Notes under the pieces: model-generated
The model's database searches: none
What the model was told of the DNA's origin: nothing
What the model saw: only the letters and a program-made list of their open reading frames with translations
From: Ulva prolifera
Taxonomy: Eukaryota; Chlorophyta; Ulvophyceae; Ulvales; Ulvaceae
Direction of reading: 5' to 3'
Length of the DNA stretch: 64,000 bases
Assembly (NCBI GenBank): GCA_023078555.1
Contig: CM041199.1
Span: 3,096,513 to 3,160,512, forward strand
Shown here: piece after piece, positions 2,709-44,752 of the stretch
How the letters are laid out: the number at the start of each line of letters is the position of its first letter
How positions within the stretch are numbered: the stretch's first letter is position 1
Program-made: the position numbers and the translations under genes

Positions 2709-3845
2709 CTAGCCCCAGGATGTGGTTGTTGTCGAGGTGCTAGTGGACGTCGTGGAGGTGAAAGGGCCCCCTGGGCGACCACTGTCGCCCCCGTCCGGGC
2801 CATCTCCCTCTTCATCACCCTCCTCCTCATCATACTCAACACCCTCCTCCTCATACAGCACATTATAATCTTGGCTCAGGTCGATCTCCAGCGTCTCCAC
2901 CTCGAAAATCTCAAGCTTCATGTCCCCCTCGCCTACTCCGGCGTCCCTGCTAACCACATACGTCGGCTCCCGCCCGTCCTCGATATAATCAATAAACCCG
3001 GTCGTCACCACGGCACCGTCGGTCTCAACCACCACCTCCGGCTCCGCGGCGCGGCGGCGGCCGCGCGGCGGCGCGAGCGTGCCGATGCCGCCAGTCAGCT
3101 GCGTGATGTTGCACGGCCCCCGCTCGATGCGCAGCTTCGGCCGCGTCACCACAGTGCGGCACTCGCAGATGCCAAAGGGGAACAGCGGGGTCGGGCCCGG
3201 ACACGGGGGGAGGTACCGCTCTGCTACGCACTCGCTCCCGAGCACCGTCACACGGCCGCCGCCCGGCAGGTCCGCGCGGGTGAAGCGCTTCGGGCACCCT
3301 GTCGCGGTCTTGCCCGTGATCTGCGCGCAGCCGATGTACGGCGCGGGGACAGTTACGATCGCGGAGTCGTAATCGCCGAGCGAGTCGATTTGGAGTTCCG
3401 GCAGGTCCTCCGGTTTGGGGTCGGTGCAGCGGCGGTCGCGGCGCCTCTTCTGGCAGTAGAACACCTTCCTGTTCTTCTTGCAGTGGCCGGAACAGGTGTC
3501 CTGGTTGCAGGTGACGATCGTGCAGCGGTTGCACACCGAGTACTTTGAAGGCTTGCGGTTGCCGTGGAGCAGGCTCCTCTGCGGCAGCGCGTATGCACGC
3601 GTGTCGGCACCGTCCTCTTCAGCGTGGAGTGCCGCCTGCTCCGCGGCGCTGGCGATGCCAGTCACGAACGCGTTGTCGACTTCAAAAGGGTAGCCTGGCT
3701 CGTCCTGGGAACAAGGTGTCGTCTGTGCATGCAGGAGGCCGTCGCTGTCTGGCTGACTGTCGACTGCTAGTGCATGGACGTCATGCACTGTCGGGAGCAC
3801 AAGCCAAGCTCCGAAAAAGAGGCACGCGGTCGCCATTGTTGCCAT
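2709..3845 (-). CDS. Secreted cysteine-rich protein, family member D (divergent)
   Basis: The product is 378 residues. The start is a real ATG with an AACAATGGC context. A hydrophobic signal peptide follows (CLFFGAWLVLPTV, then a likely cut near HALA). The motif RSLLHG lies near residue 110. Next comes a cysteine cluster with spacing C-x2-C-x4-C-x4-C-x3-C-x8-C, identical to members B and C. Then come APYIGCA, a GCP motif, LPGGGRVTVL, and PLFPFGICEC in place of PLLPFGVCEC. The acidic C-terminal region ends in a Ser/Thr-rich tail (TSTSTSTTTTS), which the other members lack. I do not recognise the family and assign no function. It is presumably secreted or cell-wall associated. No intron is needed. 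It lies on the opposite strand from A, B and C and lacks their flanking modules, so it probably split off before the tandem copies formed. Confidence 0.75.
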   Translation of the reverse strand: MATMATACLFFGAWLVLPTVHDVHALAVDSQPDSDGLLHAQTTPCSQDEPGYPFEVDNAFVTGIASAAEQAALHAEEDGADTRAYALPQRSLLHGNRKPSKYSVCNRCTIVTCNQDTCSGHCKKNRKVFYCQKRRRDRRCTDPKPEDLPELQIDSLGDYDSAIVTVPAPYIGCAQITGKTATGCPKRFTRADLPGGGRVTVLGSECVAERYLPPCPGPTPLFPFGICECRTVVTRPKLRIERGPCNITQLTGGIGTLAPPRGRRRAAEPEVVVETDGAVVTTGFIDYIEDGREPTYVVSRDAGVGEGDMKLEIFEVETLEIDLSQDYNVLYEEEGVEYDEEEGDEEGDGPDGGDSGRPGGPFTSTTSTSTSTTTTSWG

Positions 3846-6634
3846 TGTTCAGCGAATGGCGGGGGCGCGTGGAGCGTGGAGCTGAAGACTGAGCGTTAGG
3901 CTCCTGCATGCTCAGACGGGCTCAGAACAGATGTGGCTCGGAACAGATGTGGGCGGGGGTTGCAACTGAGACCTCCACTGAATGCAGTAGCTACCAGAGA
4001 TGAAGTTGGGTAACGACATGCCACAGCGGATTGTGAAAATGTATGTCAGAACTGCTGCTGCGCTATGTGCGCTGTGTGCACAGTCACACGCAGTGAGTGC
4101 GCAGTGGTGCGATGCGTTACATGCAACTGGTACATGCAACGGATGCAACGGCGCACCGCCGAGGCAGCACACATGATGCAAGTGCACATCTGCGCCGTTG
4201 GACACGTGGCACCAGTCCGCTGTTTCACCAGTCTGCTGTCTCGCTGTTGTTTCTGATCATGGTTCTGATCGTGTTCAAAGTTTGCATCGCAATGCATCAA
4301 TGCAATCTGGTATTCAGCTATTGACTTGTGCACATCTGTACCTCATGCATGCTGCGCTCATCAACACAAGAGCTTTAGCACTTGCAGTTAAAAGAGAGTG
4401 AAGAGAGCTGGCGAGGCATCAATGGCATCCATAATTTTGGCATCCCAGAGGCTTGCGTATGGCTCCATGAGTGTGTTGAAACCTAGGCTGGGTGTCTGTG
4501 ATGTGTGATGCGGCCTTCATGTTGTTTGCACCTGTGCTAGCTGACATCATGATGGACAGGAGGCCATAGTGGGCAAGGGCACCAGTGCAGTAAAAGTGTA
4601 GATGAGATAAGGCAAGACACACTGCACCCATGCACACAGAAAACATGAAATGCACCTCAGCCTATTACAGGCAACCACGCAGCTGGGGGACAGGATCATG
4701 GCCACTGCAGGCCAAGCTGCTTGCTGCGAACAGCCGGACTGTGTGGATGGACTGTGTGGATGCCCGGTGTATGCTTTGTGCATCTTGCACACAGTTATAC
4801 GGTCTAATTTCCCTCACATGCTCAAAGTGAGATTGGCACAGCGGTGTCGTGCCCGGGAGGGGCCGGGGACGCCGGTCAACAGCTGGGCCGACCACCGGCT
4901 GCGTCCCAGCAGCAGCAGCGCTCACTCGCCGGGTTTTCATGCTGCAGAGCTCGTCAAAATACGACAATTTCATTATCCGAATTGTCGCCACACGTAGCAT
5001 GGCATGTGTGCCGGGCAGTCCTCGACATGTCAGAGCTCACCTTCCCACCTCTAAACAGTCACTCCGGGCCGGAATGCAGCTGTGGAGTGCAGTCGGGGGC
5101 ACTATTCTGAGATTTGAGATGAGACGTCGACGTTTCTCCGGCGGAAGCGACACGACGAGCTTGCTATCCTCGGTTCGACTTCGCTCAAGGCGGGATGCCT
5201 CGTGTGGTCCAAACCTACAGCTGTTTCAAGATTGCTAGACTCTCTGACGATGGTGGTGTGCGCGCAAACGTGCTGCGGCTGTAAAGTGATCGTGAAGTTC
5301 GGCAGTTCATGGTGCTGCCACACCTGTGGCGTGTCAGGCCGTGCTCTGTGAGCGCAGCGTGCGTTCACTGTCATCACAAATGCGCTGCCCCCCGCCAGAT
5401 GCACCCAGCGACAGCTCTGGCATACCTCTGTCGTCGTGTACACTAGGCACTATGACAGATCGCTGTCTTGTGCACACGATACGCGTCAGGCACGGCTCTG
5501 CGTCACTGTATCTCTGAGATACGGCCGTTCGCGCCGTCGCTGTGTCGTCGTGCGTAGGATGCGCTGCAGCTGATAACACCGCGCGCAGCGTCAACATCGC
5601 CCGTATCTTATTGCGTATGCACTGTCGAATTATCGGCATGTGTATATATATACTAGTCACACTATAGTGTACTAGTACACTACGTAGTGCCATCGCTGAC
5701 AGTGTCGATCGAGCTCCATGCGCCACGGATGACTGAAAGCAGATGCACGCGTACTTAGCCGAAGCCCACGGCGTAGCGACGGCAAAGGCCCCGGGGCTTT
5801 ATGGGGCCCTTATGGAAACGGGGATGCTCGGTAGTGCTCTGTCCCTGCTTGTCGCCGCGTCCGGAAGCGTGGGGCACGTGAGGTAATCGGTCGAGGATTC
5901 CTGCTGACTGTGCAGCAGTCCAAGGCGGGCCATGCACAGCTGCGAAGTCCCCGATGCGTGCTGCGAATCTCGTCTGCAGGCGGTGTGAAGCACACTTGGG
6001 CGGTCTCCTGCGGTGTCCAGTCACGGCTTCGGCGCCGGCCTAGCGCGTATTACCAGGATAACGGCGGCGAGGGCGACAGCACGGGCGCGGGCCTCGCGCG
6101 TGCACAGCTGGCCACATGCATGGCATAGGAAGTGCAAGCATCAAGTCTGATTCGTGCCCCCTTCATAAATTGGTCTGCAGCTACAGCAGCCACACCTTCA
6201 CAATCCAGGACAACACGCAGCCCCTGCCTTGGCTTTGCAACACAGGTGCCACAGGTGGAGATCGTCAAAGCACTTGAGCTCCTGCTCTGCCGGGATTCCC
6301 TTAGCCCATGTCAGCAGGCCCATGCCACAGCACACAATTTGAATTTTTTTTCCTTTCCGACGTTGCGGTGGCTGCTGGTGACGCATCACATCACAGAGTG
6401 GCGTGCGAGTGCAGAAGGGCTTTATAAGCAGGGCTTTATAAGCACTCCGACAGGGGCAGGCCCAATGGCATGAAGTCCGGCCCTGATAGCCCGCTGGTCT
6501 GGTCTTGGTCCGCAAAGGTCTCAACACTGGTTCTGTTCCTGTGAGCCGTCTTCTGTCTACGCACGCCATCAGGCTACTTGGCCCGGGTGGTGCCTGCATT
6601 ACCTGAAGTTGTGGTGCCATGGCCCGCAGGCCCG
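3846..6634. other. Intergenic region, no supported gene
   Basis: No frame here has recognisable domains or consistent composition. A perfect 18-bp palindrome (TAGTGTACTAGTACACTA) lies at 5665-5682 in an AT-rich patch. The part next to member D (3846-3900) would hold its promoter, but I see no defined element. Confidence 0.4.
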
Positions 6635-6648
6635 CACATGACCAGCCC

Positions 6649-7288: not shown

Positions 7289-7303
7289 ACATGACCAGCC
7301 CTT

Positions 7304-11967: not shown

Positions 11968-11980
11968 TACAGAAGAGGTG

Positions 11981-12068: not shown

Positions 12069-14571
12069 TACAGAAGAGTGAACGGCCTCAATCGCATACA
12101 ATTGTCGTAAGAGTCTCTCCCGAGGCCCACCACTGTTCCAGCGACATAAGCGTTCAGCAGTCCTGCGGTGTGAGACGACGGGCGCTTTGCTCGCGATGCA
12201 GCTGATCACGAGGTCCTCTGCGCCACTGTCAGAGAACGCACGCGGCTGGTCACGAAGTCAGAGACTCTTGCTGCGCGGTTGTGCACGCCCCTCGACTCTT
12301 CTGTGATGCTATTGCGAAGTGCACCGTGGCAGCTGTGATGCATGTCATCTGACTCGGCAGGCTGTCGCTGTAGGAAGTGCACATGCATGGCTGGCGGGTG
12401 CCCGTGCTGCTGGTGGCCACTGGTGGCACTGCCGTCATGCACTGGCTGCGCACCACGGACCTGCGCACCGCAGCGCGGCATGCGGGCCACCGTACAGAGT
12501 ATGCTCATCTCCACGTCAGAGCCAATGCTTCGACGAAGTCTCACTCTGTGTTGTGTTGTGCACACAGTATATATCCAATTTGGTTGATGATTTTGAAGCG
12601 AATACAGCACAGAGCACTTCTTCATTTCCGACGCCATAAGCACGTCAATGGCACAGCCTGACTTCACAGCAACGTCGCTGCAGGTCCAGGGCGGACAAGA
12701 CATGTTTCTCTAGGCGCGTCAGATCTGCATGTATCAGGTCAGCTCATCAACCCATCAACCCATGCATCATTCACATGCATGTTGTTGTTGCCGCTACATA
12801 GCAACAATGTGAACGTCATACAGACTGCACATGTGTTGCCAATGCTCCAGCAATTCTGGGCACAGCATATATGTGCTATGCAAGCATAGCCTTCTGAGAT
12901 TGGAAGCATCCGAACTGAATCTGAACTGTGGATCTAGCTCGAGCAACACTAGTACTAGGGCAATAAAAAAACCAGGACTCGGGAAGTCACATAATCAGTC
13001 AGACAGCTTGATATTTCTGATTGTGTTTGTGTCTAGTGATCATGATACATTGTACGGTGTGTGCTCCTTAGCCAAGTGGCTTTGAATTTTACTCAGATCT
13101 GTCACACACACTTGCAAGGGACTACACACTTGCAAAGTACTCATTACTTCAAGAGATGTTCTGGTATTGTGATCGTTGTCGCCCAACCACTTCTGTGACA
13201 CATCGTACATTTTCCATTGTTCATTGGCCACTACTCGTGGATGTGAGTTTGAGAATGCAAGAGAGTGTGTTGCCTGCTGGTCCATCGATATCCGAAGAGT
13301 CATCCTGATTTGTCTGCCGTCTGTCTGCAGCATTGTGATGCAGCATTATGATGCAGCATTGTGATGCGTTGCAGCGTTCATGCACCATACTTCATGCTCA
13401 TAGAGGACAACCATCATACCTCTGGCGTGCCACACATCCAACCAGTACATCATGCTGCTTGCTTTACATTGCAATTGCCTGAATCCAACTTCGGAAGCAT
13501 CATACTTCTGAATTCAGGAGAGCAGCAGAGCTGTGCACGTGCTGTGTCAATGGCAGCTCTCAAGTATACCACGTGTGTATTACCGAGGCAAAGATAGAGA
13601 GGCAGGTAGCACCACAGCCTCAGCACCTGCAAAGCAAAGCAGGGCAGCCTCGTCAAACCTTTAAAAGTAATACCCAATGTGTCGAGGAGCACGTTGATGT
13701 GACTGCCAGTGAAGCATTGTAGCAACATCATGATGCGCAGTCTGCTGGACAGATCTGGGTTTACGATGGCGTTAGCGATGGTGTACCCCACATCAGTGCT
13801 GACTGCCAAGCAGCCAAAGTGTGCTGTGCACAGATGTCACGTATGCTTGCACAGTGCAATGCACACCTATCACAGTGTATCAGGCAGCGGTGTGTTGGGT
13901 TTGGCCCTGTCGTACGGCGGCGGGCGTTGTGGTGTTGGTGATTGTGATGTTGTGTGTTGGCCGTGGGGTCTGTGCGTGCGTGTGTGGGTTAGGGTTTGTG
14001 GGTGTGTGGGTGTGTGCTTGGCGGTCTGCGGATCTGTGTCTTTTGCTGCGCCGGTGATGAGTTTTGTTTCTTTTGGGCGTGGTGGGTGTCGCGTGCGTGG
14101 GTGTCTGTGTGTTTGCTTCGTCTGTTTGCTTCTTTCGCGGTGCTGCCCGCCTTGCTGCCTTTGTCCTTGTGACACCTATCACAGTGTACCAGCAAAGACT
14201 GGTGGTCCACAAAGAGCACCATGGTGCACGGGCATGTATCCAGATGACTGTGACGTGCATGTATCAAACAAAACAGCAGGCATGATTTTCTGGGCACAGG
14301 TGGCCAACATGAGCGGCAGCCCAGCGTCATTCGATCACCTCATGATCTGTGGAAACATTTCTGATATCATGAGCAATTGCGCTGACCAGTCAGCAAGCCA
14401 GCGTTTTTTAGCTGTGCACCAGCATAGGCACGCTGAATCTGACATTGTAGTCCTGTGAGTGTGCTGCAGGAACCTTACAGTCCCACCTCCGGACCAAAAG
14501 CTGTAGCTCTCGCCGCTTCGCTGTCAGCAGGGGATCGTGCAGCTTTGGCACAAGCCGTTCCGCAGCTGCAC
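12069..14571. repeat. Upstream module UM, copy A
   Basis: It shares ordered blocks with about 19890-22246 (copy B) and 41540-43531 (copy C). Examples are CAGAAGAGTGAACGGCCTCA at its left edge, GCACATGCATGG near 12382, an ACTTGCAA block near 13108 and 13129, and CTCATGATCTGTGGAAAC just before the gene. It precedes gene A as the other copies precede B and C. I see no coding frame shared by all three copies. It carries a later LINE-A insertion at 13884-14171. Confidence 0.65.
13884..14171 (+). mobile_element. LINE-A, 5'-truncated, with 21-bp target duplication
   Basis: GT-rich element ending TTTGTCCTTGTG. The flanks at 13863-13883 and 14172-14192 are 21-bp direct repeats that differ at one base (core ACACCTATCACAGTGTA). 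The duplication fixes both borders. Confidence 0.88.
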
Positions 14572-15939
14572 ATGGTGGGATGGTCCACGTTCAGGCACCG
14601 CTCGCGAGCCTGGTGGCAGCCGCTCCGTTCCATGGCCATTCTCATCTACACTACAGCCTTCGCAATGGCGGGAGCAGACCCAGCAGGTGAGGATCCCGTA
14701 CTGCAGATCGACGTTTTTCCTGCTCTGCCTGATGGTCGAACATTAGGATATCTCAAGGCTTCAAGAAGTTCTAGTTGTCTGAGTTTCCAAGGGCAATGGA
14801 GCCGCTCCAGTAGATCACTAGAAACTCTACATGACTATAACCTGCTCAGTGCAGAGTCGGCTGAGCTTTACCTCGGCAACTCTGCAGCAGTGTTGGGTCA
14901 TCAGGCCCGATCACATAGAACAATTCCGAATCCAGGTCTATTATTATTTTTGTAGCAGCCCTGAAAATGCTGTAAAGCGACCCAACACTGCTCTGCAGGT
15001 GTTGGCGACGCAGTCAGCAACGGCCTGCAGACTGAGCTCAAAGGCAATGATAGAACTGACCGTCTTAGTTCTGCTGGTGGAGCGTCTCGGATCCTGCTGC
15101 ACGGTAAACACAGGCTCAGCAAATACCCCAAGTGCGACAACTGCAGAATGGTGAAGTGCTACCAGTCCGGGTACTGCTCAGGACACTGCAAGAGGAAAGG
15201 GCGGCTGCGCTTCTGCGACTCGAATACCAAGGGAGAATCGTTTGTGCCGATGCCCGTGCCGGAGCCAGATCTCTGCGGGGCTGACCAGGATGGCGAACAC
15301 ATCAATGTGGATGATGGGGCACCTCCACCAAACAGCATCGCGGAGTACGACACGGTGGTGGTGACTGCAGAGGCGCCATACATCGGCTGCGCGAACATCG
15401 CCAACCGGCCCTCCGGCTGCCCCGCCCGCGGCACGGGTGCGACACTCCCCGGCGGCAGGCAGGTCACGGTCCTGACCAGTGTCTGCATGTCGGAGCCGTA
15501 CGTGCCAGACTGCGGGTCGCCGCTGCTGCCGTTTGGCGTGTGCGAGTGCTTCTACCGCGATGATCTGCAGCGGCCACCTGGCGGAGGCCCCCCGCCCGGA
15601 CCGTCACCGCGAGGGATCGTCCGGGCAGCCTGCAGCACCACGGAGCTCGCGGCCGGGTCCGGGGTCGGCAGCGCTGATGGCTCTGCATCAGAGGACGGCC
15701 TTGTGGTTCAGCCCGCTGGCGACCGGACGCTGACGTGGTTCTCTGACTTCATTGAGCCTGAGCAGCTGCCCACATTCTCGTACAATGTGACTGCAACAGC
15801 AAGGACTGTAGATGTAGAGGTTTCTCTGGGTATTTACCCAGGTATCGTGATGGTCGCAGACTATGTGGGCGAAGACCCTGTTCCAATAGATCCAGGGGAC
15901 TATGATCCGTATGACTACGGTGGTGCAGAGATTGAGTAG
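14572..15939 (+). pseudogene. Secreted cysteine-rich protein, family member A, interrupted by a MITE
   Basis: The frame opens at ATG 14572, the position matching an ATG in member B. A signal-peptide-like segment follows (MAILIYTTAFAMAGADP). The frame then runs into a hAT-like insertion at 14888-14990 that brings an in-frame TAG (14953-14955) and TGA (14962-14964). After the insertion the same frame continues to 15939, because the insertion plus its 8-bp duplication adds 111 bp, exactly 37 codons. The downstream part is intact: an LLHGKH motif, C-x2-C-x4-C-x4-C-x3-C-x8-C, VVVTAEAPYIGCA, LPGGRQVTVLTS, PLLPFGVCEC, a Pro-rich linker and an acidic tail ending GGAEIE. Unless the insert is removed from the RNA, the product stops after about 127 residues. 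I cannot assign a function. Confidence 0.75.
14888..14990. mobile_element. hAT-like MITE (103 bp)
   Basis: The terminal inverted repeats are CAGTGTTGGGTC (14888-14899) and GACCCAACACTG (14979-14990), a perfect 12/12 match. The flanking direct repeats are CTCTGCAG at 14880-14887 and 14991-14998, a perfect 8-bp target duplication. CAG-starting ends and 8-bp duplications are hallmarks of the hAT superfamily. It is too short to encode anything. It is absent from members B and C. Confidence 0.93.
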
Positions 15940-21518: not shown

Positions 21519-22246
21519 AGGCTACCTGCCATAGCCTAGCAGCGCATCATGAATTAGGCTTTGTGATTATATTGCCAATATTGCAGTGCCTGTCTTAACA
21601 TCGAAAGCGTCATACCACACAGTGTAAAACTTCCCATGTCAATGAATCATTGACATGCTCGGAGCATGTAGGTCTGACTGAATGTACTGTTATTCATGAG
21701 ACCAGGCAAGAGGCAGTGCAGCAACATGCTCAGCCTGCTGGACAGAGTCTTGGTGGTGTATACCAGTATCAGTGCTGACTGTGAGGCAGTCACGGTGCAC
21801 TATGTACAATGGTCATTTGTCAGGTATGTTGCGTTCGCTTGCTAAAGCGACACTGAAGAGTGGCTAGCCAGCGGTGTTCCTGTTCAACATCAAGGGTGCC
21901 AACGGCACTGTTGCACAAGCCGCATGTGCCCAGCTGGGCATGTTCCGCAAGTGTCAACACAACATGATGTCTTCTGATCACAGGGGACTATCAACGTTGA
22001 CCTGATGCGTGGTAGGCAGCCTTCCCTCGCTCCATCACCTCCATCACCTCCATCACCACGTGATCTGTGGAACCATTCCTGAGCATTGTCAACCGGCCAC
22101 ACGGCAAGCCAGTGCATGCAGCTGTCCACCAGGGTTGCCGCGCTGTGGATCATCCTGAGAGTGTGCTGCAGGATACTTACCGCTCAGCGTCCGGCACCCA
22201 CGCCATAGCTGTCGCCGCTTCTCTGTCTACTCCGATCGGCGCAGCT

Positions 22247-23509
22247 ATGAAGCAAACCTCTTTGCAGCTGCAGACTATGGAAAGGATCATGCTCAAGCGC
22301 GGCAGGCACCACTCCTGGTGCCATCCTCTGCAAGTGGCCTCCACGGCTATGGTCCTTATATACGCGTCAGCCTTCGCAACTGCCGCATGCGCAGCAGCCC
22401 CAGAAGTGCAGGGTGGCGCAGTGCACAAAGACATTCCATCACGCCTAACTGTGGATCCAAAAGCGTCTAGCTATCACACCATCCGCGGCAGCATCATGAT
22501 GTCCAGCAGATCACCAGCCGGTCCAGAGTACAATGACCTACTCACTGAGCCTTTCCTGGCCAGCTCTGAAAGGGACGGCGGCGCAGTCAGCAACAGCATG
22601 CAGACCGAGCTCAAAAGCGAGGGCATGCTTGACCGTGATAACTCTGCTGGTAGAGCGTCTCGGAGCCTGTTACACGGCAAACCCCACACGCTTGACAGAT
22701 ATCCCAGGTGCCCCAAGTGTAAGATGGTGCAGTGCAAGTTCGGATTTTGCACAGGACACTGCAAGAAGAAAGGGAAGCTGCGTGAGTGCAATTCGAACAC
22801 CCAGGCGCCGCGGAGGGGTCCTGTTTCCGCGCCGGAGGCAGACCTCTGCGGGTTTGGCGATGAAGGCGAAGGCAGCAATGTTGATGAATATGGTGAATCT
22901 CATCCAAACAGCATCGCACAGTTTGACACGGTGGTGGTGACTGCGGAGGCGCCATACATGGGCTGCGCCTACATCGCCAACCACCCCACAGGCTGCCCCG
23001 CCCGTGGCACGCACGCGACGCTCCCCGGGCGCAGGCACGTGTCGGTGCTGACCAGTGTCTGCAGGGAAGAGCCGTACGTGCCAGACTGCGGGTATCCGCT
23101 GCTGCCGTTTGGCGTCTGTGAGTGCTTCTACCGCGACGCCCCTCAGCGGCCACGTGGCAGACGCCCCCCGCCCGGACGGACACGCCCGCGCATCATCCGG
23201 GCAGCCTGCAGCACACTGGAGCTGGCGGCTGGGTCCGGAGTTGGTGGCGCTGACGGCTCTCCTTCAGAGGACGGCCTTGTGGTGCAGCCTGCTGGCAACC
23301 GCACGCTGACGTGGTTGTCAGACATCAATGAGCCTGAGCAGCTGCCCATATTCTCGTACAACGTAACTGCAACAGCCATGTCTATTGATGTAGATGTGTC
23401 TTTGGATATCTATCCAGGGTTTGTGATGGTGGCGGACGTTGTGGGTGAAGTTACGATAGATCCAGGGGACTATGAACCACATGACTATGGTGTTGCAGAG
23501 GTTGAGTAG
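22247..23509 (+). CDS. Secreted cysteine-rich protein, family member B
   Basis: Uninterrupted frame of about 420 residues from ATG 22247. ATGs at 22277 and 22289 are alternatives, and 22289 aligns with the start of member C. An earlier GTG extends the frame to 22067, but the upstream similarity is simply duplicated DNA. A hydrophobic segment (STAMVLIYASAFATAACAAA) fits a signal peptide. Features in order: RSLLHG; C-x2-C-x4-C-x4-C-x3-C-x8-C (CPKCKMVQC...CTGHC); VVVTAEAPYMGCA; GCPARGT; VPDCGYPLLPFGVCEC; an Arg/Pro-rich linker; AACSTLELAAGSGVGG; and an acidic tail ending GVAEVE. Two NxT/S sites near the end (NRT, NVTA) could be glycosylated. I do not know the function. This is the cleanest full copy together with C. 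Confidence 0.8.
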   Translation: MKQTSLQLQTMERIMLKRGRHHSWCHPLQVASTAMVLIYASAFATAACAAAPEVQGGAVHKDIPSRLTVDPKASSYHTIRGSIMMSSRSPAGPEYNDLLTEPFLASSERDGGAVSNSMQTELKSEGMLDRDNSAGRASRSLLHGKPHTLDRYPRCPKCKMVQCKFGFCTGHCKKKGKLRECNSNTQAPRRGPVSAPEADLCGFGDEGEGSNVDEYGESHPNSIAQFDTVVVTAEAPYMGCAYIANHPTGCPARGTHATLPGRRHVSVLTSVCREEPYVPDCGYPLLPFGVCECFYRDAPQRPRGRRPPPGRTRPRIIRAACSTLELAAGSGVGGADGSPSEDGLVVQPAGNRTLTWLSDINEPEQLPIFSYNVTATAMSIDVDVSLDIYPGFVMVADVVGEVTIDPGDYEPHDYGVAEVE

Positions 23510-32668: not shown

Positions 32669-34455
32669 ACCCATGCACATTTCAACGTGACTCGTTTCTG
32701 CAAAAGACAGATCGAGGATCCATCCATCCACTGCTCAGATATAAACTCCGACAGCTACGTGCATTTTGTGGCAATTCCAGCCCAAGTCGAGACTATCACA
32801 GTATGCAGTGGCGTGCATGGGTGCCAGCTGGTCCTTAGGCCCATCACAGCTTGATACCAACTCACGAATAGTGTGGGAATTGAGGTCAGCTGGGGTGCAC
32901 CTGAAAGTTCACGTCACAGGTGTAGCTGGCCTGTGGCTCTCAGCTTGGATGACCGGTAGGCCGCTTCAAACTGCGGGGCCACCATGGTGCACCGCACACA
33001 GGCAACCCCAATTCCCATGCACATTTCAACGTGACTCTTTTCTGCAAAAGACAGATCGAGGATCCATCCATCCACTGCTCAGATATAAACTCCGACAGCT
33101 ACGTGCATTTTGTGGCAATTCCAGCCCAAGTCGAGACTATCACAGTATGCAGTGGCGTGCATGGGTGCCAGCTGGTCCTTAGGCCCATCACAGCTTGATA
33201 CCAACTCACGAATAGTGTGGGAATTGAGGTCAGCTGGGGTGCACCTGAAAGTTCATGTCACAGGTGTAGCTGGCCTGTGGCTCTCAGCTTGGATGACCGG
33301 TAGGCCGCTTCAAACTGCGGGGCCACCATGGTGCACCGCACACAGGCAACCCCAATTCCCATGCACATTTCAACGTGACTCTTTCCTGCAAAAGACAGAT
33401 CGAGGATCCATCCATCCACTGCTCAGATATAAACTCCGACAGCTACGTGCATTTTGTGGCAATTCCAGCCCAAGTCGAGGCTATCACAGTATGCAGTGGC
33501 GTGCATGGGTGCCAGCTGGTCCTTAGGCCCATCACAGCTTGATACCAACTCACGAATAGTGTGGGAATTGAGGTCAGCTGGGGTGCACCTGAAAGTTCAT
33601 GTCACAGGTGTAGCTGGCCTGTGGCTCTCAGCTTGGATGACCGGTAGGCCGCTTCAAACTGCGGGGCCACCATGGTGCACCGCACACAGGCAACCCCAAT
33701 TCCCATGCACATTTCAACGTGACTCGTTTCTGCAAAAGACAGATCGAGGATCCATCCATCCACTGCTCAGATATACACTCCGACAGCTACGTGCATTTTG
33801 TGGCAATTCCAGCCCAAGTCGAGACTATCACAGTATGCAGTGGCGTGCATGGGTGCCAGCTGGTCCTTAGGCCCATCACAGCTTGATACCAACTCACGAA
33901 TAGTGTGGGAATTGAGGTCAGCTGGGGTGCACCTGAAAGTTCATGTCACAGGTGTAGCTGGCCTGTGGCTCTCAGCTTGGATGACCGGTAGGCCGCTTCA
34001 AACTGCGGGGCCACCATGGTGCACCGCACACAGGCAACCCCAATTCCCATGCACATTTCAACGTGACTCGTTTCTGCAAAAGACAGATCGAGGATCCATC
34101 CATCCACTGCTCAGATATAAACTCCGACAGCTACGTGCATTTTGTGGCAATTCCAGCCCAAGTCGAGACTATCACAGTATGCAGTGGCGTGCATGGGTGC
34201 CAGCTGGTCCTTAGGCCCATCACAGCTTGATACCAACTCACGAATAGTGTGGGAATTGAGGTCAGCTGGGGTGCACCTGAAAGTTCATGTCACAGGTGTA
34301 GCTGGCCTGTGGCTCTCAGCTTGGATGACCGGTAGGCCGCTTCAAACTGCGGGGCCACCATGGTGCACCGCACACAGGCAACCCCAATTCCCATGCACAT
34401 TTCAACGTGACTCTTTTCTGCAAAAGACAGATCGAGGATCCATCCATCCACTGCC
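32669..34455. repeat. 344-bp tandem array in E1 (about 5.2 copies)
   Basis: Near-identical units. The marker TGTGGCAATTCCAGCCCAAG recurs every 344 bp (about 32767, 33111, 33455, 33799, 34143). Units differ by isolated single bases. Each holds CAGATATAAACTCCG, a TATA-like sequence. The array lies between the end of the transposase gene and the start of the accessory gene. The five copies of a 138-codon frame are a by-product of the repeat. Confidence 0.92.
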
Positions 34456-34567: not shown

Positions 34568-37500
34568 TTACTTTCCTGATAACTTTGAACAAGTCATGAA
34601 GACTTGACTTTCTCGAGTTCCACCTCTGGCTAGATCATTTTGAAAAGTTTGAGACGGAACCAGCTGGCTCCACACTTCAGATAAATTAACTAGATTCAAT
34701 CCAAAGTAGCATCTTGTACCACTCCGGCGCCGCGCAGATGGCGCTAGTTGGTTGGCTTCGGTGTCACCCATGTGATGCACCTTCAGTAAGTCTGGGACGC
34801 TACCAGGCTGACGATCGGGGCTGCCAATGGCATCGCAATCTAGGATATCAGCTGCCCATAGCTTGCAAATTGCCATACGAAGAGGCTGGGCGGGGATAGA
34901 CTTCCCCGGAATGTCGGACGGGACAATGTATTGGTCCACCTCTTCTCTGTGGACACACCCTCGGGGATCAAACGCTTTGGAAGCCCCGTTACTGGTCCGC
35001 ACACGGACAAACGCTTGCACCTGAGCTACACAAGGGCATTCGGTATTATCATCATACGTGTACCCCACAAACACCCATCTGTTGTCCGTGACTACATGCC
35101 TGCAATCATCATTGCAAGTGACCACATCCATCGACGGAAGCGAGGCCTGCATATACTTATCAAGCATGAATCTGTTCTTCTTGTGCATCCGATGCATAAC
35201 GAAGTCATGAATCGCAGGCCACCCGCGGTCTCTGTACCATTTGCGAGATTCGCCTTCCACTCTAAGTAACCCTGGAAGCTGTTGAATGACACATAGCTCC
35301 TGCTCTTCGGTCAGGCCTCTTTTGTTCGAGGGGCCTAATAACAAGACGTCTTCAGAAGAGACATCATACTCGGGGAAGGCCACGGCAGATGGCTTCTCAC
35401 GCCTCTCCTCAATTGTCAAACAGTGTTCTGGGTACATGCACCGGCATGACTGAGCAGAGACCATGAGCAAATGGTCGTTCACAAACGTAACTTCACCATT
35501 ATCCTTGACTCGATCTTTCAAGTGCAACTTCAGATACCAGATCATGCGTTCAATCCAATACTCGGTGTACAGAGATCCGGGACCTTGACAACAGAGCTGG
35601 TCGATGACATGCACCACTGAATGATGTAGTTTGGCGGTCGTCAACACCAAGCCATGAAAAGCCTGCAGTGCATCGGCCAGTACATCTCATGTATATGTAT
35701 ACATGAGGAACAAATCTCTCTCTCTTCACGGACAACGGCAACACCACACCTGCTGGGCAGCAAAGGCGTATGTCTCAAAGTCCTCTCGGGCTTGGGCCAG
35801 ACGCTTGAGAGTATGGTGCTCTGTATGCTGCTGGCGTAGGCAAAACATTACCGCCCGGCGAAGGCTGCCCCACTGAAGTTCAAACATTTCTTTCACCGCA
35901 GAATCTTCATCCTTCCAGGGAAGCTCGAACAGGAGGAATGGCGAGCACGTTTCTACGAAGGTCATGTACTCCTCCATTGTCCAAGTAGACCTACTCCTGC
36001 AGCGCAAAATCCAAGTCAAATAGACGCACTAGGGTGACACCGGTGGTGATTCGTCACTATGCACGCCCTAGAGAAACGGTGTTGTCATCATACCCGAGTA
36101 CATCAGCGCTGCGCTTCTTCATTTGTGCTGTCCAGTGCATCTTGGCTGCCCGTCTCTTGATGACCTCCCGGATGTACTTAGGAAGAACGTACTTGTTTCC
36201 GTGGAGTCGATGTTTCTTTCTTCGTTTAAACGAAGAAAGAAATTTGGTTTGGATCCATCAGCCTTTGGTTTTGGGTCTTCTGGGCGAAGCCACACATTCC
36301 AGAAATCCCGGACGATGCCGTACAACAGTAGATGCGCCAACGCAAAGTGGAAAAAATGTTCATACCTACAAGACGTACGCGTGTCCTTGATCATGATGGG
36401 TGTCTTCCGACACTCATGGCTTCCAGTGATTCACGCACGCACCTGAAGTAACTGAGCCTGCTATACCCTGGCATCCCACGTAGGCCAGTCTCCGTTTGAA
36501 CCTTTTCTGCATCACTCTTGAGCTTCTTCCAAGACTTTTTGCGAGCTTCAGGATCTTGTTGGTGCAGAGGCGGCGACAAATTCCTCAGGGACTTGTCCCA
36601 CTGATCTTGCACACTTTGCGCGCGTTCATGCATCTCGTACGCAGTGTACTTTAACTCTTCGGTGTCGTCCCAATCAGCTTCATCATCGGTGAGACGGGCA
36701 CCGTTCCGCAAAGACTCTGCATGGCATGGTGGTAGTTGTGAGCGTGAGACCGGCGGATCCTCCCCTGCGTACCCAGCGGGGACACCCAGCTGACGAGCTA
36801 CGTGGTCCCTCTTGTGAATGTCCGGGATCCGCTTTGCATCTTTAGTGGCGGGCATTTTTCGAGGTACATTCGTCTCGTACGGAAACCTACAAGCACATGT
36901 CACATCACTGTGTGCCTAGGATCCTCCAAAAATGCACTCTTGAGGTGCACTGGTTGGTGTGGCAACTAGTGTATAGCCAGGATCTGCACAGGTGGCATAC
37001 AAGTTTGCACGGCCACGTCACCGCTGAACCTCACCTCATGGCATTCTTGATGGACTTCCCCTGAAGAGCGCAACGTGGGCAAGCCTCAACTGCACTGTGT
37101 GGCAGCGTCAACATGAGCTTATACATCATCATGAGGTCTCCTTCCACGAAAGCAAGCACAGGCCAGTGTTGTATGCGCATCTCCCTTCCTCCTGGGAAAA
37201 TTGTGAATTCAAACGGTTCTGTGCCCTCCCGACCTGCGCATGGCAGGATCCACGAAGTCAATTGACCCCCTTTTCAACACATTGGTCACTCAGCTACTAC
37301 CGACTGAAAACTGTGTGTATAAGATATTGGATATTGGGGCATCCTCGATAAGAGGATGTACCTGGGTCGTGGTTGACAAAGAAGTCCACAGTTGGCTTCA
37401 AAATGTCTTCCAATTGAGACGGCTCCGTAGGACCTTCCAGAATGATGAGAGGCTGCCATGATAGGCAGCTGGCATTTTTTGCGACATGTAGATCGTAGCG

Positions 37501-39380
37501 TCTCACGCCGACAATGGTAGTACTGCCAATTCTTAGCTTGAAGATGTTGCCACCATCAGCTCCTGCACATGCGTAGAATAGGTGAGGCAACGCTAGCATT
37601 ACCGGTACTCAATGGTGTTAAGACGATACGTGGTTCGACCACATGTCGAGTACATAGTAGAGATATGGATTGAGGGCATGCAACTAGCAATCGGTGCCAA
37701 CGCATTGAAGTACTGCATCATTGTGCCCCACGCGGTTTGACACCCACAGTGTGGCATAGGTTCGAACATGATCACACCCATGCCATAAATTCCTGCACCA
37801 AAAGCATCGGTACGCTTCGAGAGAACATTTTTGCAATCCTCGTTGAGCATATTGAGGTACAGGGACCCGGCCACGCCATCGGCATCAGTGAAGTCCAAAG
37901 GATGGGCCGCAAGCACTGCCTCACGAAAAGCTTCGTCCTCATGAAACCACTTAATTACGGCCTCCATTGTGAAATCCCATCCTCTTCGGTTGAACTTTAC
38001 GGTTCTTGCTGACGCAGCCTGGACCAATAGAAAACAAATTATGTATGGGAGCAAAAATGCGCAGCTGTTGCATATGCACATAGGATGAAATTCGAATTCG
38101 CCGCGGGACACCATAATAGGATAATGTACAAGGCACATCAACACAAGGCACATAAAGATGTGACTCTGGTGGATACACTCATAATCATGTCAACAATGTA
38201 AACAAGATGTTCTTATTAATAAGATCAGAGGACATACCTCATACTTGTGATAGCCGCATCGTGGACAAGTCTCTTGCAGCAACTGCTCCCTGGTCTTGGT
38301 GGCCTTGTCGGGATCAACTTCAAAGCGCATGGCGCACTCGCTGCACCACCCGAATTCATACTTGGCCGCGTCCTCTGTGCCTAGCACTTGTTTCACCATG
38401 TGCATGGAGTGGGGCAAGAGAATCTCATGTGGTTTATGTTCTCCCTTGAAACCAGATAGCAGACGGTAATTGTCTTCCGCGATCATCTCTAGAACAGTGT
38501 TGCTGGCTCCATGCTTCTTAATCTCGACCTGATTGTAGGCGGCTTGTAGCACGGACCTCTCGTGGTTGGTGGCAAGAGGTTCTAGCCGTCTTGACCTGAG
38601 CCACGCGCCTGACTGCTTGCGCGGCATTCTTGGCAGAGGCCCGAGGCGGCTGTCACTGTCATCGCTGTAATCGCCTTGGGATTCAGTGTCGGACTCCAGC
38701 CCGTACTGTGGAACTCCGGAACAGAACGCCCCCTCACCATCACTAGCAATGGGTCCATCAATTGAACCTTCGTCTGCCTTGCCAGCATCATCTCTAACTC
38801 GTTCATCCTCGCTAGTAGAGTAAGCATAGCTTGGTTGGGAATCGACGGTAGCTGCGATACTGTCAATCGATTGCGAGACTGGAGATTTTGGAGCAGGCCC
38901 GGCACTGTCTGAAGCTGCGACACTGTTAGATTGGGCATGCGCAGACGAACCTGTTGTCGGGGCGCTTGAGCCATTACCGCCTGATGGCTCTCTGGCATAT
39001 GCATTTTGGTCAACTTGAAGTAGCACGCCCCCGGGTTCGGACCCAATCGCAACGTGGGCTTGGCTATCAACCACAACCGCACAACCTACAGAATTTGGAG
39101 GGGCTGGTCCTCTTCTATGCTGCTGTCCTGAAAGTGCTTGATCGTCGTGGGAACAATTCCGTTCCGGATTGCCACTGGTGCGATGGCAAGAAGCTAGATG
39201 ACGCTTCGCTGCCTTGGTGCTTGCGACAATTCCTCTGTTGACCCGGTTCGATGTACCAGGGGCGCAATTCGCTCTTGTCTCTTCACAAAACTTGCACACA
39301 AGTTTCCAAGTACCCTGAAGTTCCCTTGCATCGAAAGCAGGCAACCCCAGCGCAGCTGTCACTGCAGCCTCTCGCTCCAT
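34568..39380 (-). CDS. E1 transposase, Tnp2-type (CACTA), eight exons
   Basis: Exons, read right to left: 39380-38238, 38018-37778, 37562-37362, 37233-37035, 36886-36443, 36365-36094, 35996-35750 and 35662-34568. All introns are GT..AG and phases agree except inside exon 6. Features: a BED-like zinc finger (CKFC...KRHLASCH) near residues 30-65; a long Ser/Gly/acidic linker; WCSEC...CPRCGYHKYE; LIILEGPTEP; IQHWPVLAFVEGD then ACPRC; AHLLLYGIVRDFWNV; WTMEEYMTFVETCSPFLLF; and HHSVVHVIDQ...GPGSLYTEYWIERM, which matches the DUF4218-like part of plant Tnp2 proteins. E2 encodes a related protein with the same blocks in the same order. Exon 6 contains a 30-bp palindrome (36213-36242), and the frame changes there, so the gene may be broken. 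Without that break the product would be about 1,280 residues. Confidence 0.8.
36213..36242. repeat. Perfect 30-bp palindrome in the E1 transposase exon 6
   Basis: The arms are TTTCTTTCTTCGTTT and AAACGAAGAAAGAAA. The palindrome lies where the coding frame of exon 6 switches. Confidence 0.95.
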
Positions 39381-40914
39381 GGAAGACTATGCAGTGCCCG
39401 GAGTACTCCTCCTCACAATCGTCAGTCATGGCTCAACCTACTTGCTGCGAACGCTCATGTCCTAACAACTGTCATCTTAGCTTGCTTCCAATGTGGAGGT
39501 CTCAAACGTCGTCCCGATGCCATACTCGCGAGGCTTGTCTGCCACATGTACAACGTCGTCGCTCACTGCAAGTGTAAAGAGGGTGTGCGTTGTTGAAGTT
39601 GACTGAGTATGTCCAACCAGTTGTATATATATACTACCTCCCGCAGACAAAGGCCGGCGTGTGCGCACCCCACATGTACACACATCGAGACACACGTCAC
39701 CTTTAGGTTCACGCCAAAAAAGACTCCCTTGGGGCATGAATAAGGGGTACAACTACGACACAGCAGGTAGCCCCGTTATAGTCTCGTACCCAGGCTGTCA
39801 GTGTGCAAGGACTCGTGAACAAGTGTAAACGAGCACGCTGTAGTGTCCTATTACAATAAAGAAGGGCACCTGTATCGTACATGTTATGGATAGCTTCATT
39901 GAAAGACGTTCGTCAGGAAAAAAAATGTCTGCGCTCACGCATGCCGCAACTGAAGCCACGTTGCGGCCATGTTCACGCAGCGATCAGAAAACAGCAGCGA
40001 ATTGTCACACCTACTTGTGTAAGTGAAAGTAGGCAGGTCCATGAACTCGACCTTGCTTGGTGAATTTTATAAGACCACAGCTGAATCATTATGTGATCGA
40101 TGAGCAGTACTCGTGCTGTATATATGTGCTGTATACGTAGGAGGCGTTCGGGTATGGCAAGCACACCTCACGCGGAAACACACCACTAGGTACGCGGGTT
40201 TGACGACTCGATCTGCAGTGATGTAGCCATTGGATTGAGATCCGCGCAGTGTGTACATTGCCGAGCCTGAATTCCGTTTCGCGAAGCTGAGTTCGAGTGG
40301 TCCCTGCGGACTCGGTTTGCCAGGACGTAATAAATGCATCATCCCTCTGTACAACAAAGCGCAGATCGCACTGTAATATACGTATTTCATTATTGCTCAT
40401 GCCGACGTTACTTTCTGTACGAAGTCCAGTAGACCAGGTACATCGAGGGAATGCTGTCATGCCCCTGTTGGACTGTTAGCATTCTACCAACAAAATGAAT
40501 CAGCTTTTTGCAGTCCTCATAGAATAAAGCAATTACACAGTGTCTCTTGTGAGCAAATCAAGGCAGTGGAAGCGCAAAAGTGCCTATTGCAGCTCCGCAC
40601 ATGTGTGCATAGCTTATTGGCATTGCAGCTGGAAATCGGCATAGCATTGTGTCTGACCACAGCCAAATTCTATCACACGGGAGAACTTGAAAACAGAAGG
40701 CATGGATATTATCATCGAGTCAATGCTTCACAGGACGCTGAGCAAACACCACCACATGCTGTACTCACCAATACGATAACACCAATCATTAACGTTTACG
40801 GTCAACTTGTAGTTTCATGCGGTTAACACGGCTGGAATCCTACGGCAATTTGTATCCTTGTGTTAACACAACGTTGGCCTAGCAGTCAGATGCGCAGCCT
40901 GTCCCGGGTTGATC
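39381..40914. other. E1 5' region of the transposase gene
   Basis: No gene supported. This is probably the promoter side of the transposase gene. An AT-rich TATATATATA stretch lies at about 39624-39634, roughly 250 bp before the assumed ATG. Another TATATATG lies near 40118. Confidence 0.4.
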
Positions 40915-41120
40915 ATTACCGTGTCCTTACACACCAGCTCCATACGACCAAAGCCAAGCCCGATTTAGTCCTTACCATAGGGACACAACCGAGAGTCCTT
41001 AAGATCCTTGTGCCGGCCTGGTCCCCACTGTAAGGACTATGTTGGCCTTAAGGTGATTGTAAGGACAGTATATGGCTGCCTCACCGTGATGCTCGGATAG
41101 GGCATGCATAAGGACAACTC
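40915..41120. promoter_or_regulatory. E1 right subterminal repeat region
   Basis: GTCCTTA or TAAGGAC motifs at about 40924, 40970, 40992, 41032, 41051 and 41109, mirroring the left end. Confidence 0.7.
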
Positions 41121-41133
41121 AGTGCTGGTAGTG
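41109..41133 (-). repeat. E1 right terminal inverted repeat
   Basis: Ends CAGTGCTGGTAGTG, a perfect inverted match to 28418-28442, followed by the CAG target duplication. Confidence 0.95.
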
Positions 41134-41273
41134 CAGCAGCCACCTCCTGGCGCGGCGTCACCACGACGATGTCCCCGCAACGATTCAGCTCCACACCCGC
41201 GCCCCCAGCAACGGCACGGTAGAGCGGCTTAGTGCAGACTGCAGTCAAGCGAATGAGGCGCCCAGGCACAAGC
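41134..41273 (-). mobile_element. LINE-B ORF fragment, minus strand, right of E1
   Basis: Reading leftwards, the DNA encodes PGRLIRLTAVCTKPLYRAVA and then RCGDIVVVTPRQEVAA, reaching the E1 junction. The frame continues across the junction into 28417-28350 (ADVVIMHAPIGSG). Its right border is the 5' truncation point. Confidence 0.65.
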
Positions 41274-41539
41274 TTAAGGCACGAGCCAGGTCGTCATGGT
41301 GCGTCTGGGTCTCCTTTCACCATTATGGGCCTTTCATCTTCTTACAGGCTATGGCATGCGCATGCTCCGGTCCGGCGGCAACACCTGCGCTGCATTTGCA
41401 GGGAGGGGGGGACGTCCTCTGGGACGCAGAACCGCAGGCGGTGCCACATGTACACCGCCACGGCCACGGTCAACTCGAGTTGTATTGTTTTTCATTCTCT
41501 TTTGTAACCTGTTTTTCAGAAAAGGGTTGCATTGGCAGT

Positions 41540-43531
41540 ACAGAAGCCTGAACGGGCCCAAACGAACACGAGACAGTTTTGCTAGCGAATTGTGAATCCA
41601 GTAGCGACAGACGCTTACTGCAGTGCTGCAGTGTGAGACGGTGGACAGTGCACTCGCGATGCAGCTGGTACTCTTCGTGACTCGGAGGCCCTCAGCGCCA
41701 CGGCCGGAGAACGCACGACGAAGTAAGAAACTCGTGTACTGCGGTTGCTTAAGCCCCTTTTCTCTCATGTTGTGACATCGTGAGGTACGCCGCGGCATCT
41801 GTGATCGATGTCACTTGACTTGGCCAGCTGTCAATGAAGGATGTGCACATGCATATGCATGGTCGGCGGGAAGCTGTGCTGCTAGCCACTGTCGTCAGGT
41901 GCATCCTGTGGAGCACGGAGCTGCGCACCCCGGCACTACCTGCGGGCCACGTACGGAGTATATGTGTTGATCACTTCATCATAGCGCTCATCATAGCCAG
42001 CACTGCTTCGCGACGATGCCTCACTCTGCATGATAATGTACACACCGTACTCCTTTGATACGAGTGAAATCGTTGATGGTTCTGAAGAAAACTTCCTTTC
42101 AAGATGGCAAATGTGTACAGTTCATGAGTACTTCAAACACGTGTAGTAACATCTCCATCTCGGGATATGTGCATGATGACAGCACCCCGAAACTTCACTT
42201 CACTTCGCTTCACTTCGCAGCCGCTTCAGGGCAGACCAGTGAAGTCAGGCACGTGCATGTATCAGATCGGGTCATTGGTCACAGTGAAACAAGCGAGACC
42301 GAACCAATGGCCAGCTCATCATAAAGGCTGCACAGCTTTTGCTCAGAGCTCCGGCAATACAGTGCACAGCATTTATGGTCAATGCGAACATTTCCCAGAA
42401 GCATCAGAGTTTGGACTGTGGATCTGGCGCGAACTGCGGATGCAGTCCCTGGCCCACAGAGTCAGGCAGCTCAACACATATTTTTCTCATTGACTTCTGT
42501 ATGGTGATTATGGTTCATTGTGCGGTGTGTGCTCTCTGGCTTTCTGGCTTGAAGTTGCATCCAGACCTGCCACAGTGCCACATCGTGCTTGACCTGTAGC
42601 TTCAAGAAACATTCGGGTGTTGTACAATGTGTTCGTTTTTTGTAGGTTCCTTTTTTTTGTAGGTTCCTTTTACAATGGCCGCTGCTACTTGTCAATGTGG
42701 GCACCCTTGCCTGCTGAAGGCTCCAGCATCCTCCTGAGTTGCCCTTGCCTTCTCTGGCATCATGTCGGCAGCAGCTGCGCTGCGCTGCATGCAGCCTGCC
42801 TGTGTCATAATTCCAGTGGGCCGATTCAGCCTCTAGAATTCAACGGATCCTAGCAGTACATCATGCTCCGGGCTGTACATTGTGCAGCATAGTGGCACTG
42901 TGTGGTTCAAATTTCAGAAGCATCATGATTCTGAGTATAGGAGACAAGCATAGCTGTGCTGTGACATTGGCTGCAAGCAAGTACACCGCACGTGCATCAC
43001 ACATCATAGCACGTGCTATGGGGTACCCCATGTGTCAATGAGCACGCTGGTCATGCAGACGCAGCATGATCCAGCATGATCGGACACAACATGCTCAGTC
43101 TGCTTGATAGATTTTCTGGACAGATTTGCCATATAGATCTGAGGGGTGTTCCACTGGCAGTGCAGCACCATATGCATGGACAGCTGCGTGTATCTAGATG
43201 GCTATGATCTTCAAGTATAGCAATAGCTTGTTTTGCTGAATATGGTGTATTTTGAGGCAGCCATCATGCGTGACAGACACTCCTTCCTCACACCGTCATC
43301 ACTTGATCTGTGGTACAATTTTTTGGCATTGTAGCTGGCCATGCGGTGAGAGAGTGCGTGCATGCTGTCCACCAGCGTTGCCGCGCTGTGCCTCATGCTC
43401 AGAGTGTGCTGCAGGGCAAGTCCTCCTCCACACCCGACGTCCGCGATTTAGCTGGGCAGAGTTCTCCGTCGTCGCCGATCGGTGCAGCTTTGGAACAGGC
43501 GTCTTCGCAGCTGCAGACTATATGCTGGTCG
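41540..43531. repeat. Upstream module UM, copy C
   Basis: Homologous to copies A and B: ACAGAAGCCTGAACGGGCCC at 41541, GGATGTGCACATGCATATGC near 41838, GGACTGTGGATCTGGCGCGA near 42414, TGTGCGGTGTGTGCTCTCTG near 42518, and TGATCTGTGGTACAATTT before the gene. No coding frame is common to all copies. Confidence 0.65.
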
Positions 43532-44752
43532 ATGTTAATGCGGGGCCGACCCCACTCCTGCCGCCAGACCCTAGTTCCCATGGCAATGATCATCATCTAC
43601 ACGTCAGCCTTTGCAATTGCCAGAGCAGACCCAGCAGGGCAGGAGGCAGCGGTCCATGGAGGCCCTTTCTCACTCCTCCCTGACTCGAGGTCTCTAAGCT
43701 CCCTGACTTTCCGTGACAGCACCCCCAGCAGACCACTGGACACTCCAGAGGGCCATGACTCATGGGCAGATCTACTCACTGAGCCTATGATCGCCAGCTC
43801 TGCAAGTTCCGGCAGTGCTGTCAGCGACAATCTGCAGACCAAGCTCGAGGGCAAGGTGAGAACTGGCCGAGTTAGTTCTGCAGGTGGAGCGTCTCGGGGC
43901 CTACTGCATGGTAAACACCAGCGCAAGAGATTCCGCAGGTGCCCAAACTGTCGGATGGTCAAGTGCTACCAATCTGGGTACTGCTCGGGCCACTGCAAGA
44001 AGCAAGGGGACCTACGCTTCTGCGACTCAAACTCCCGGGCCCCACCGTTTTCTCCCCAGCCGGCGCCAGAGCCAGAGCTCTGCGAGCCTGATAGTGATGG
44101 CAGAGACACCGGCATCGAAGTGAAGAGTGATGAAGCACCACACAGCAGCATCGCGGAGTTTGATACGGTGGTGGTGACTGCGGAGGCGCCGTACATCGGC
44201 TGTGCCGACATCGCCAACCGTCCCTCTGGCTGCCCAGCCCGTGGCACGCGTGCGACACTCCCCGGCGGCAGGCAGGTGTCGGTGCTGACCAGTGCCTGCA
44301 AGACAGAGACCTACGTGCCGGATTGTGGGTCTCCGCTGCTGCCGTTCGGCGTCTGTGAGTGCTTTTACCGCGACGATCCGCAGCGGCCACCTGGCGGACG
44401 CTCCCCGCCCGGACCGTCTCCGCGAAGGATAATCCGGGCAGCTTGCAGCACCGCGGAGCTGGCGGCCGGGTCCGGGGTCGGCGGCACTGATGGCTCTCCT
44501 TCAGAGGACGGCATTGTCGTGCAGCCCGCCGGTGACCTGACCCTGACGAGGTTCTCAGATTTCATTGAGCGCGAGCAGCTGCCCACATTCTCGTACAACG
44601 TAACTGCAACAACCCGGAGTATCGATGTACACGTGTCGTTAGATATTTATCCAGAAATTGTGATGGTCGCGGACTTTGTGGGAGAAGACCCTGTTCCGAT
44701 AGATCCAGGGGACTATGAGCCAGATGACTACGAAGGTGCAGAGATTGAGTAG
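43532..44752 (+). CDS. Secreted cysteine-rich protein, family member C
   Basis: 406 residues from ATG 43532, the first in-frame ATG. The frame is open further back to 43310 only through a GTG. The signal-peptide-like start includes PMAMIIIYTSAFAIARADPA. Then follow RGLLHG; the cluster C-x2-C-x4-C-x4-C-x3-C-x8-C (CPNCRMVKC...CSGHC); VVVTAEAPYIGCA; GCPARGTRATLPGGRQVSVL; YVPDCGSPLLPFGVCEC; a Pro/Gly/Arg linker; AACSTAELAAGSGVGG; and an acidic tail ending EGAEIE. It is intact, with no insertion. Together with B it shows what member A looked like before the MITE. Function unknown; secretion is inferred from the N-terminus. Confidence 0.8.
   Translation: MLMRGRPHSCRQTLVPMAMIIIYTSAFAIARADPAGQEAAVHGGPFSLLPDSRSLSSLTFRDSTPSRPLDTPEGHDSWADLLTEPMIASSASSGSAVSDNLQTKLEGKVRTGRVSSAGGASRGLLHGKHQRKRFRRCPNCRMVKCYQSGYCSGHCKKQGDLRFCDSNSRAPPFSPQPAPEPELCEPDSDGRDTGIEVKSDEAPHSSIAEFDTVVVTAEAPYIGCADIANRPSGCPARGTRATLPGGRQVSVLTSACKTETYVPDCGSPLLPFGVCECFYRDDPQRPPGGRSPPGPSPRRIIRAACSTAELAAGSGVGGTDGSPSEDGIVVQPAGDLTLTRFSDFIEREQLPTFSYNVTATTRSIDVHVSLDIYPEIVMVADFVGEDPVPIDPGDYEPDDYEGAEIE

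Follow-up and report, generated by a model that had tools for sequence, protein, structure and literature searches.

Pherophorins and other volvocine matrix proteins are secreted, multigene, cysteine-containing proteins of green algae. In land plants, protease-matured cysteine-rich secreted proteins, of which RALF is an example, are prominent. RALF precursors have ~80–120 residues and a mature peptide with four cysteines, and the YISY receptor-binding motif also varies in clade IV RALFs, according to the accessible part of PMC5258720. The accessible part of PMC13082318 describes plant subtilases overall as being without a clear consensus; AtS1P/SBT6.1 and SBT3.5 cleave at RxxL/RxLx, and RALF23 is cleaved by AtS1P at INRRIL/ATRRY, directly N-terminal of the mature cysteine-rich peptide. 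A further described arrangement that is relevant here is the histidine brace, in which an N-terminal His and one further His build a T-shaped copper site (PMC10952591, as far as its accessible part goes).

The proteins described here are encoded in a stretch of 64,000 nucleotides of Ulva prolifera DNA (G000:C4:3096513-3160512), which is called the window in the following, and at many further places of the genome. This genome has 38 matches to the light-harvesting, chlorophyll a/b-binding family, and one such protein hits chlorophyll a/b-binding chains in the PDB, the top one (9vfj) being long and maybe of another lineage. These matches indicate a chlorophyll a/b alga, probably a chlorophyte and less probably a secondary green alga. 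Of two U. prolifera primers given in PMC6293516, DXR is without a match at up to 3 mismatches and HDS has a single one with 2 mismatches, which taken by itself speaks against this species. Judged from their sequences, they appear to form a large, maintained and uncharacterised family of cysteine-rich proteins that are probably secreted and plausibly matured by proteolysis.

The four genes of the window

A sequence-only reading of the window had assigned four genes (D, A, B and C; Table 1) to one family. Their mutual homology was borne out by tblastn within the window, where C matches the D region with 121 bits (E 1e-31) and the best of 500 shuffled-D controls reached 29.6 bits against C. Identity to C over the mature region is 77% for A, 70% for B and 38% for D, which lies on the opposite strand and belongs to a different subfamily. 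The motifs APY-[IM]-GCA and PL-[LF]-PFG-[VI]-CEC and the acidic tail (last 60 residues net negative) are found in A, B, C and D as had been described. Two other elements needed to be redefined: the motif given as R-S/G-LLHG is R-x-LLHG in all four proteins, A reading RILL, and the six-cysteine cluster is present in all four with a spacing that varies, the third gap being 4 in B and D versus 5 in A and C, and wider still in other family members. The same reading had named R-S/G-LLHG but missed its likeness to a protease site, along with the motif of the pro-segment, the two histidines and the genome-wide size of the family.

Table 1. Positions of family genes and their features in the window (position 1 is the first nucleotide of the window)
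Feature	Positions	Strand	Description and basis
Gene D, subfamily D	2709..3845	-	one ORF of 378 aa that opens with ATG; tree; tblastn to A, B, C
D: RSLL/HG, predicted S1P-type site	3561..3578	-	translation
D: six-cysteine basic module with CSGHC	3453..3533	-	translation, alignment
Gene A, interrupted	~14572..15939	+	ORF listing, tblastn, empty-site frame
MITE-like insertion in A pro-region, 103 bp	14888..14990	+	terminal inverted repeats of 12 bp, perfect
A: RILL/HG, predicted S1P-type site	15088..15105	+	translation
A: six-cysteine basic module	15133..15216	+	translation
Gene B	22067..23509	+	480-codon ORF from GTG; ORF listing, tblastn
B: RSLL/HG, predicted S1P-type site	22661..22678	+	translation
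B: six-cysteine basic module	22709..22789	+	translation
Gene C	43310..44752	+	480-codon ORF from GTG; ORF listing, tblastn
C: RGLL/HG, predicted S1P-type site	43895..43912	+	translation
C: six-cysteine basic module	43940..44023	+	translation

The ATG codons at 22277 (B) and 43532 (C) appear likelier starts than the GTG codons from which the listed ORFs run. The N-terminal part of A lies in ORF 14455-14955, with the ATG at 14572 as its likely start, and the rest of the gene lies in an open frame from 14968. The element that interrupts A is flanked on both sides by an 8-bp target duplication (CTCTGCAG). Its relatives occur at eight other places of the DNA fetched for the family loci, one of them just 54 bases long. 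The A frame is continuous across the empty site obtained by removal of the element. Splicing of a 63-base GT-AG stretch (14936-14998) would also preserve the frame, so that the element may be a new intron. Since the Ka/Ks of the A mature region is below 0.5, the insertion is considered to be young, tolerated or spliced.

Size and genomic distribution of the family

The count of four copies given by the sequence-only reading is correct inside the 64-kb window and does not extend to the genome. Genome searches with C and three divergent members gave 44, 41, 33 and 47 matching pieces. When pieces were merged up to a distance between their starts of 1.2 to 2.5 kb, at E cut-offs from 0.001 to 0.01, 45–50 separate places resulted in the 88.9-Mb genome of 44 contigs, a number that includes a block duplicated on contig C9 as well as the weak places C1:593454 (with stops) and C4:7198735 (E 0.009). 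This is thus not a four-copy family. Most places are clustered on contig C4, at 3.09-3.29, 4.30-4.31, 4.48-4.50 and 6.41-6.44 Mb, and the remaining ones are found on C1, C3, C5, C6, C8 and C9; some of the places outside the window are broken or partial.

Family matches in the fetched DNA amounted to 46 stop-to-stop pieces with a minimum length of 60 codons. Three pieces that were cut by the end of a locus or overlapped another one were dropped, and the set retained consists of the 34 whose length reaches 280 codons. One of these is identical to another, which leaves 33 aligned rows; column counts refer to 32 rows because L037 is truncated and was omitted. The tree places D in a group of four (support 100/99), its companions being found at C4:3.293 Mb and to the left of the window. 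Another supported group unites A, B and C with a gene at C4:3.166 Mb. The branch of I1 is very long and its placement is unsure.

The loci L030-L034 (C1:11.53-11.55 Mb and C9:0.09-0.10 Mb) make up a duplicate block in which one gene is identical over 553 codons and its neighbour has stops in the C9 copy. The block may stem from a recent segmental duplication, or it may be a duplicate left uncorrected in the assembly.

Organization of the proteins

Family members, which are likely secreted, have a common order of parts: a hydrophobic start, a pro-segment, the R-x-[LI]-[LM] motif, a basic six-cysteine module, a variable linker, a cysteine-rich core, a C-terminal region and a tail. A 15-residue stretch with a mean hydropathy of at least ~1.8 is found near the start of 27 of the 33 rows, the row starts having been picked by eye and the hydrophobic character assessed by hydropathy. 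The six rows without a strong hydrophobic start are A, whose row begins past the insertion, L012, whose ORF opens without such a stretch, L010, where it is weak, and the three genes of the H clade, which have none. The pro-segment features a recurrent P-F-x-V...V-T-G...Q-A motif, the V-x-G...Q columns of which are occupied by V in 23, G in 23 and Q in 25 of the 32 rows.

The R-x-[LI]-[LM] motif is present in 33/33 aligned members, 29 of them reading R-x-LLHG; in the rows used here, the part N-terminal to it has between 40 and 198 residues. The predicted mature part that follows has 243–517 residues in 32/33, the remaining one being truncated, and carries exactly 14 cysteines in 21/33. The basic module conforms to the pattern C-x2-C-x4-C-x(n)-C-x-G-[HK]-C-x(n)-C and has a positive net charge in all 33 members, up to +19 (in L012 the charge was taken over a fixed 45-residue stretch). 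The core is defined by the motifs AP[YF][IVM]GC, GCP and PFGxCxC. The last 60 residues are net negative in 28/33 and net positive in 5/33. Proline-rich modules of the wall type do not stand out, a PPP run being found in 10/33 members with one or two each.

Of 2966 stop-to-stop frames in the fetched DNA, 36 contain the cysteine pattern. Family matches account for 35 of these frames, and the 36th lies within the damaged counterpart on C9 of a C1 gene. In L049 (C5:8676950-8677900) the third and fourth cysteines of the cluster are both missing, and their joint loss is a hint that the two pair in a disulfide.

Searches for known families

No named family with this layout had been recognised from the sequence, a statement that stands in Pfam, NCBIfam, PHROGs, the PDB and viral and prokaryotic contigs; other algae may have relatives, whether or not these bear a name. 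The 33 members gave no credible match in Pfam at E up to 0.5, only nine families matched by one member each, the best of these weak matches being DUF1431 (E 0.028). When the genes of the window were compared with Pfam at E up to 1, those of the family gave a single match (BPL_N, E 0.19). The best values obtained with 10 members, 0.0092 in NCBIfam and 0.0069 in PHROGs, each concern a single member and were taken as chance. A profile of the 33 rows found no credible chain in the PDB, its one match having an E of 2.2. For the viral and prokaryotic contigs, two short peptide patterns were drawn from 10 closer rows because the 33-row alignment is too diverse; they yielded 20 and 39 matches, none of which was confirmed by tblastn. 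Among the open-access papers listed in literature searches, none describes the family in its title or the beginning of its abstract. In a PDB search with C alone, the androgen receptor was matched (E 0.0081) and was rejected as a coincidence of cysteine pattern.

The family is, like the pherophorins and other volvocine matrix proteins, multigene and cysteine-containing and, by prediction, secreted, but none of its 33 members matches their DUF3707 domain (PF12499) in Pfam. A genome-wide search for DUF3707 also found none, which shows little as the control genomes gave none either.

Selection

In 23 non-identical paralogue pairs the Ka/Ks of the mature region (Nei-Gojobori) is 0.25–0.65, figures that are rough because the pairs share sequences and dS exceeds 1 in several; they come from 24 picked, not exhaustive, pairs, one of which is identical. 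The upper end of the bootstrap interval is below 1 in 23/23 pairs, the highest being 0.91. The values within the window are 0.42 for A-B, 0.32 for A-C and 0.40 for B-C. These ratios indicate maintained proteins. The selection that the sequence-only reading had suspected from tandem expansion with cysteine conservation is thus found to be purifying, and the dN/dS comparison that it proposed, when run across paralogues, gave values below 1 and not near 1.

Constraint differs along the protein. Among A, B and C the core has the lowest dN of all regions (0.06–0.11) and the cysteine module has a Ka/Ks of 0.19–0.44. The linker is the loosest region, with a Ka/Ks of 1.05–1.19 or 0.73–0.90 in A, B and C depending on the boundaries used, and of ~1.6 in the pairs D1-D2 and F1-F2 (28 codons each). 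No significant positive selection emerged, though it may exist: in A, B and C the linker exceeds 1 with one set of boundaries and drops below 1 with the other, and in D1-D2 and F1-F2 it stays near 1.6.

Predicted maturation and possible roles

In all 33 members the R-x-[LI]-[LM] motif fits the RxLx/RxxL form of S1P sites and the position seen in RALF23, as both are given in the accessible part of PMC13082318. The genome has 11 subtilase matches. One of them, an exon at locus L043 (C1:7634300-7635600), matches human MBTPS1 with an E of 3e-110, the next best subtilisin reaching 9e-26, and by this similarity the genome clearly encodes an S1P. The exon just upstream in the same gene reads RRQLL opposite RRLL, the self-processing site of human MBTPS1, in a weak alignment (E 0.76). 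Processing by S1P is proposed because the site is invariant despite the widely variable length that precedes it and because an S1P gene is present in the genome; cleavage of family members at R-x-[LI]-[LM] is plausible on these grounds. The signal peptide would come off the presumably secreted preproprotein in the ER, and a site-1-protease-type subtilase would then cut C-terminal to the motif, freeing a mature protein of ~243–517 residues that begins with the basic, putatively disulfide-bonded module and usually has an acidic end. The mature protein could be a component of the wall or of the extracellular matrix, its basic module attaching to acidic polysaccharide of the wall or to neighbouring molecules by their acidic tails. 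The preferred reading, that the family consists of S1P-processed secreted proproteins of wall or matrix, is given a probability of about 0.4, the role in wall or matrix being a best guess among several. It has against it the six rows that have no strong hydrophobic start, the five net-positive ends and the scarcity of proline-rich wall modules. The sequence-only reading had offered wall, mating or defence proteins as a conjecture. If the site functions, S1P-type maturation would seem to be used in green algae on a protein wholly different from RALF.

Against cleavage speaks that R-x-L-L is a short motif which could be structural and that conservation extends into the H-G behind it. R-x-LL-H-G would then be part of one continuous extracellular domain, an arrangement compatible with any role, and the frequency of H and G past the expected cut (29/32 each), close to that of the leucines (29/32 and 31/32), agrees with it. 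Yet the part preceding the motif, with its 40 to 198 residues, is unlike a domain core, and H-clade members retain R-x-I-L while losing H-G; the structural explanation is less likely than not. A signalling role similar to that of RALF, in which a basic, cysteine-rich ligand set free by S1P would bind to receptors or to polymers of the wall and so alter growth or reproduction, keeps the cut and finds an echo in the order of parts shared with RALF23 (signal, pro-region, RxxL-type site, cysteine-rich mature part; PMC13082318, accessible part) and with the S1P/SBT6.1-processed RALF preproproteins of land plants, as well as in the numerous diverging and clustered paralogues. The likeness ends at the mature portion: its 243–517 residues (32/33) and 14 cysteines (21/33) are at odds with the dimensions of RALF, a six-cysteine module is followed by a further cysteine-rich core, YISY is found in 0/33, the 33 members gave no RALF match in Pfam, and the host is an alga, RALFs having been found in 0/5 chlorophytes surveyed in the accessible part of PMC5258720. 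Such signalling is therefore unlikely.

Basic cysteine-rich modules that act on microbes at the algal surface, that is, extracellular defence, would account for the positive charge of the module in every member, for the cluster expansion and for the fast-evolving linker; given a core and a module that are constrained in A, B and C, no significant positive selection and no credible family match in Pfam, this role is improbable. A multigene, probably secreted family could also serve gamete or mating recognition, and secreted precursors are reported together with subtilisin-like enzymes in Chlamydomonas mating ectosomes (PMC6919629). The accessible part of that study deals, however, with dibasic and furin-like sites and not with RxLL, and the core of the family is constrained, so that recognition of this kind is very improbable. 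The interruption of A and the several other places that are broken or partial might suggest spurious or decayed ORFs without function, an idea that is hardly credible in view of 34 ORFs of at least 280 codons and is contradicted by Ka/Ks values below 1.

Two conserved histidines

His is found in at least 10 of the 32 rows in two columns only, the residue that would follow the S1P-type cut and the His of C-[ST]-G-H-C, at 29/32 each. When L037, L049 and L038 are counted as well, both histidines are present in 31/35 sequences and the C-[ST]-G-H-C His in 32/35. L049 keeps both of them despite its two missing cluster cysteines. L038, a truncated and decayed-looking piece, has Arg and His at the two positions. 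Met and Lys replace the two histidines in three members of one clade; as these are divergent elsewhere too, the three double replacements count as one event and are maybe a coincidence.

By analogy with the histidine brace, cleavage by S1P would expose an N-terminal His that could form a copper site with the C-[ST]-G-H-C His, which would define a new family of extracellular copper proteins, acting perhaps on wall polysaccharide or in the cross-linking of tyrosine-rich tails. If cut as predicted, the family would share with LPMO, CopC and X325 an N-terminal His in addition to a second His; unlike in those proteins, the second His lies 27–35 residues on, within the cysteine cluster. LPMO families are absent from the nine weak Pfam matches of the 33 members. 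A copper brace is quite improbable.

Other features of the window

Three long ORFs, 34568-35650 (-), 38190-39380 (-) and 57324-58655 (+), are transposon-like by impression only; sub-threshold Pfam matches are DUF4218 (E 0.028) for the first and DUF7560 (E 0.00019) for the second, with none for the third. Two tandem arrays are also found. The one at 32670-34454 repeats a 344-bp unit 5.2 times with 99% matches and yields a repeated 138-aa ORF. In the other, at 55151-56592, a 174-bp unit recurs 8.3 times with 98% matches; this array carries a repetitive 545-aa ORF that stays open because 174 is a multiple of three.
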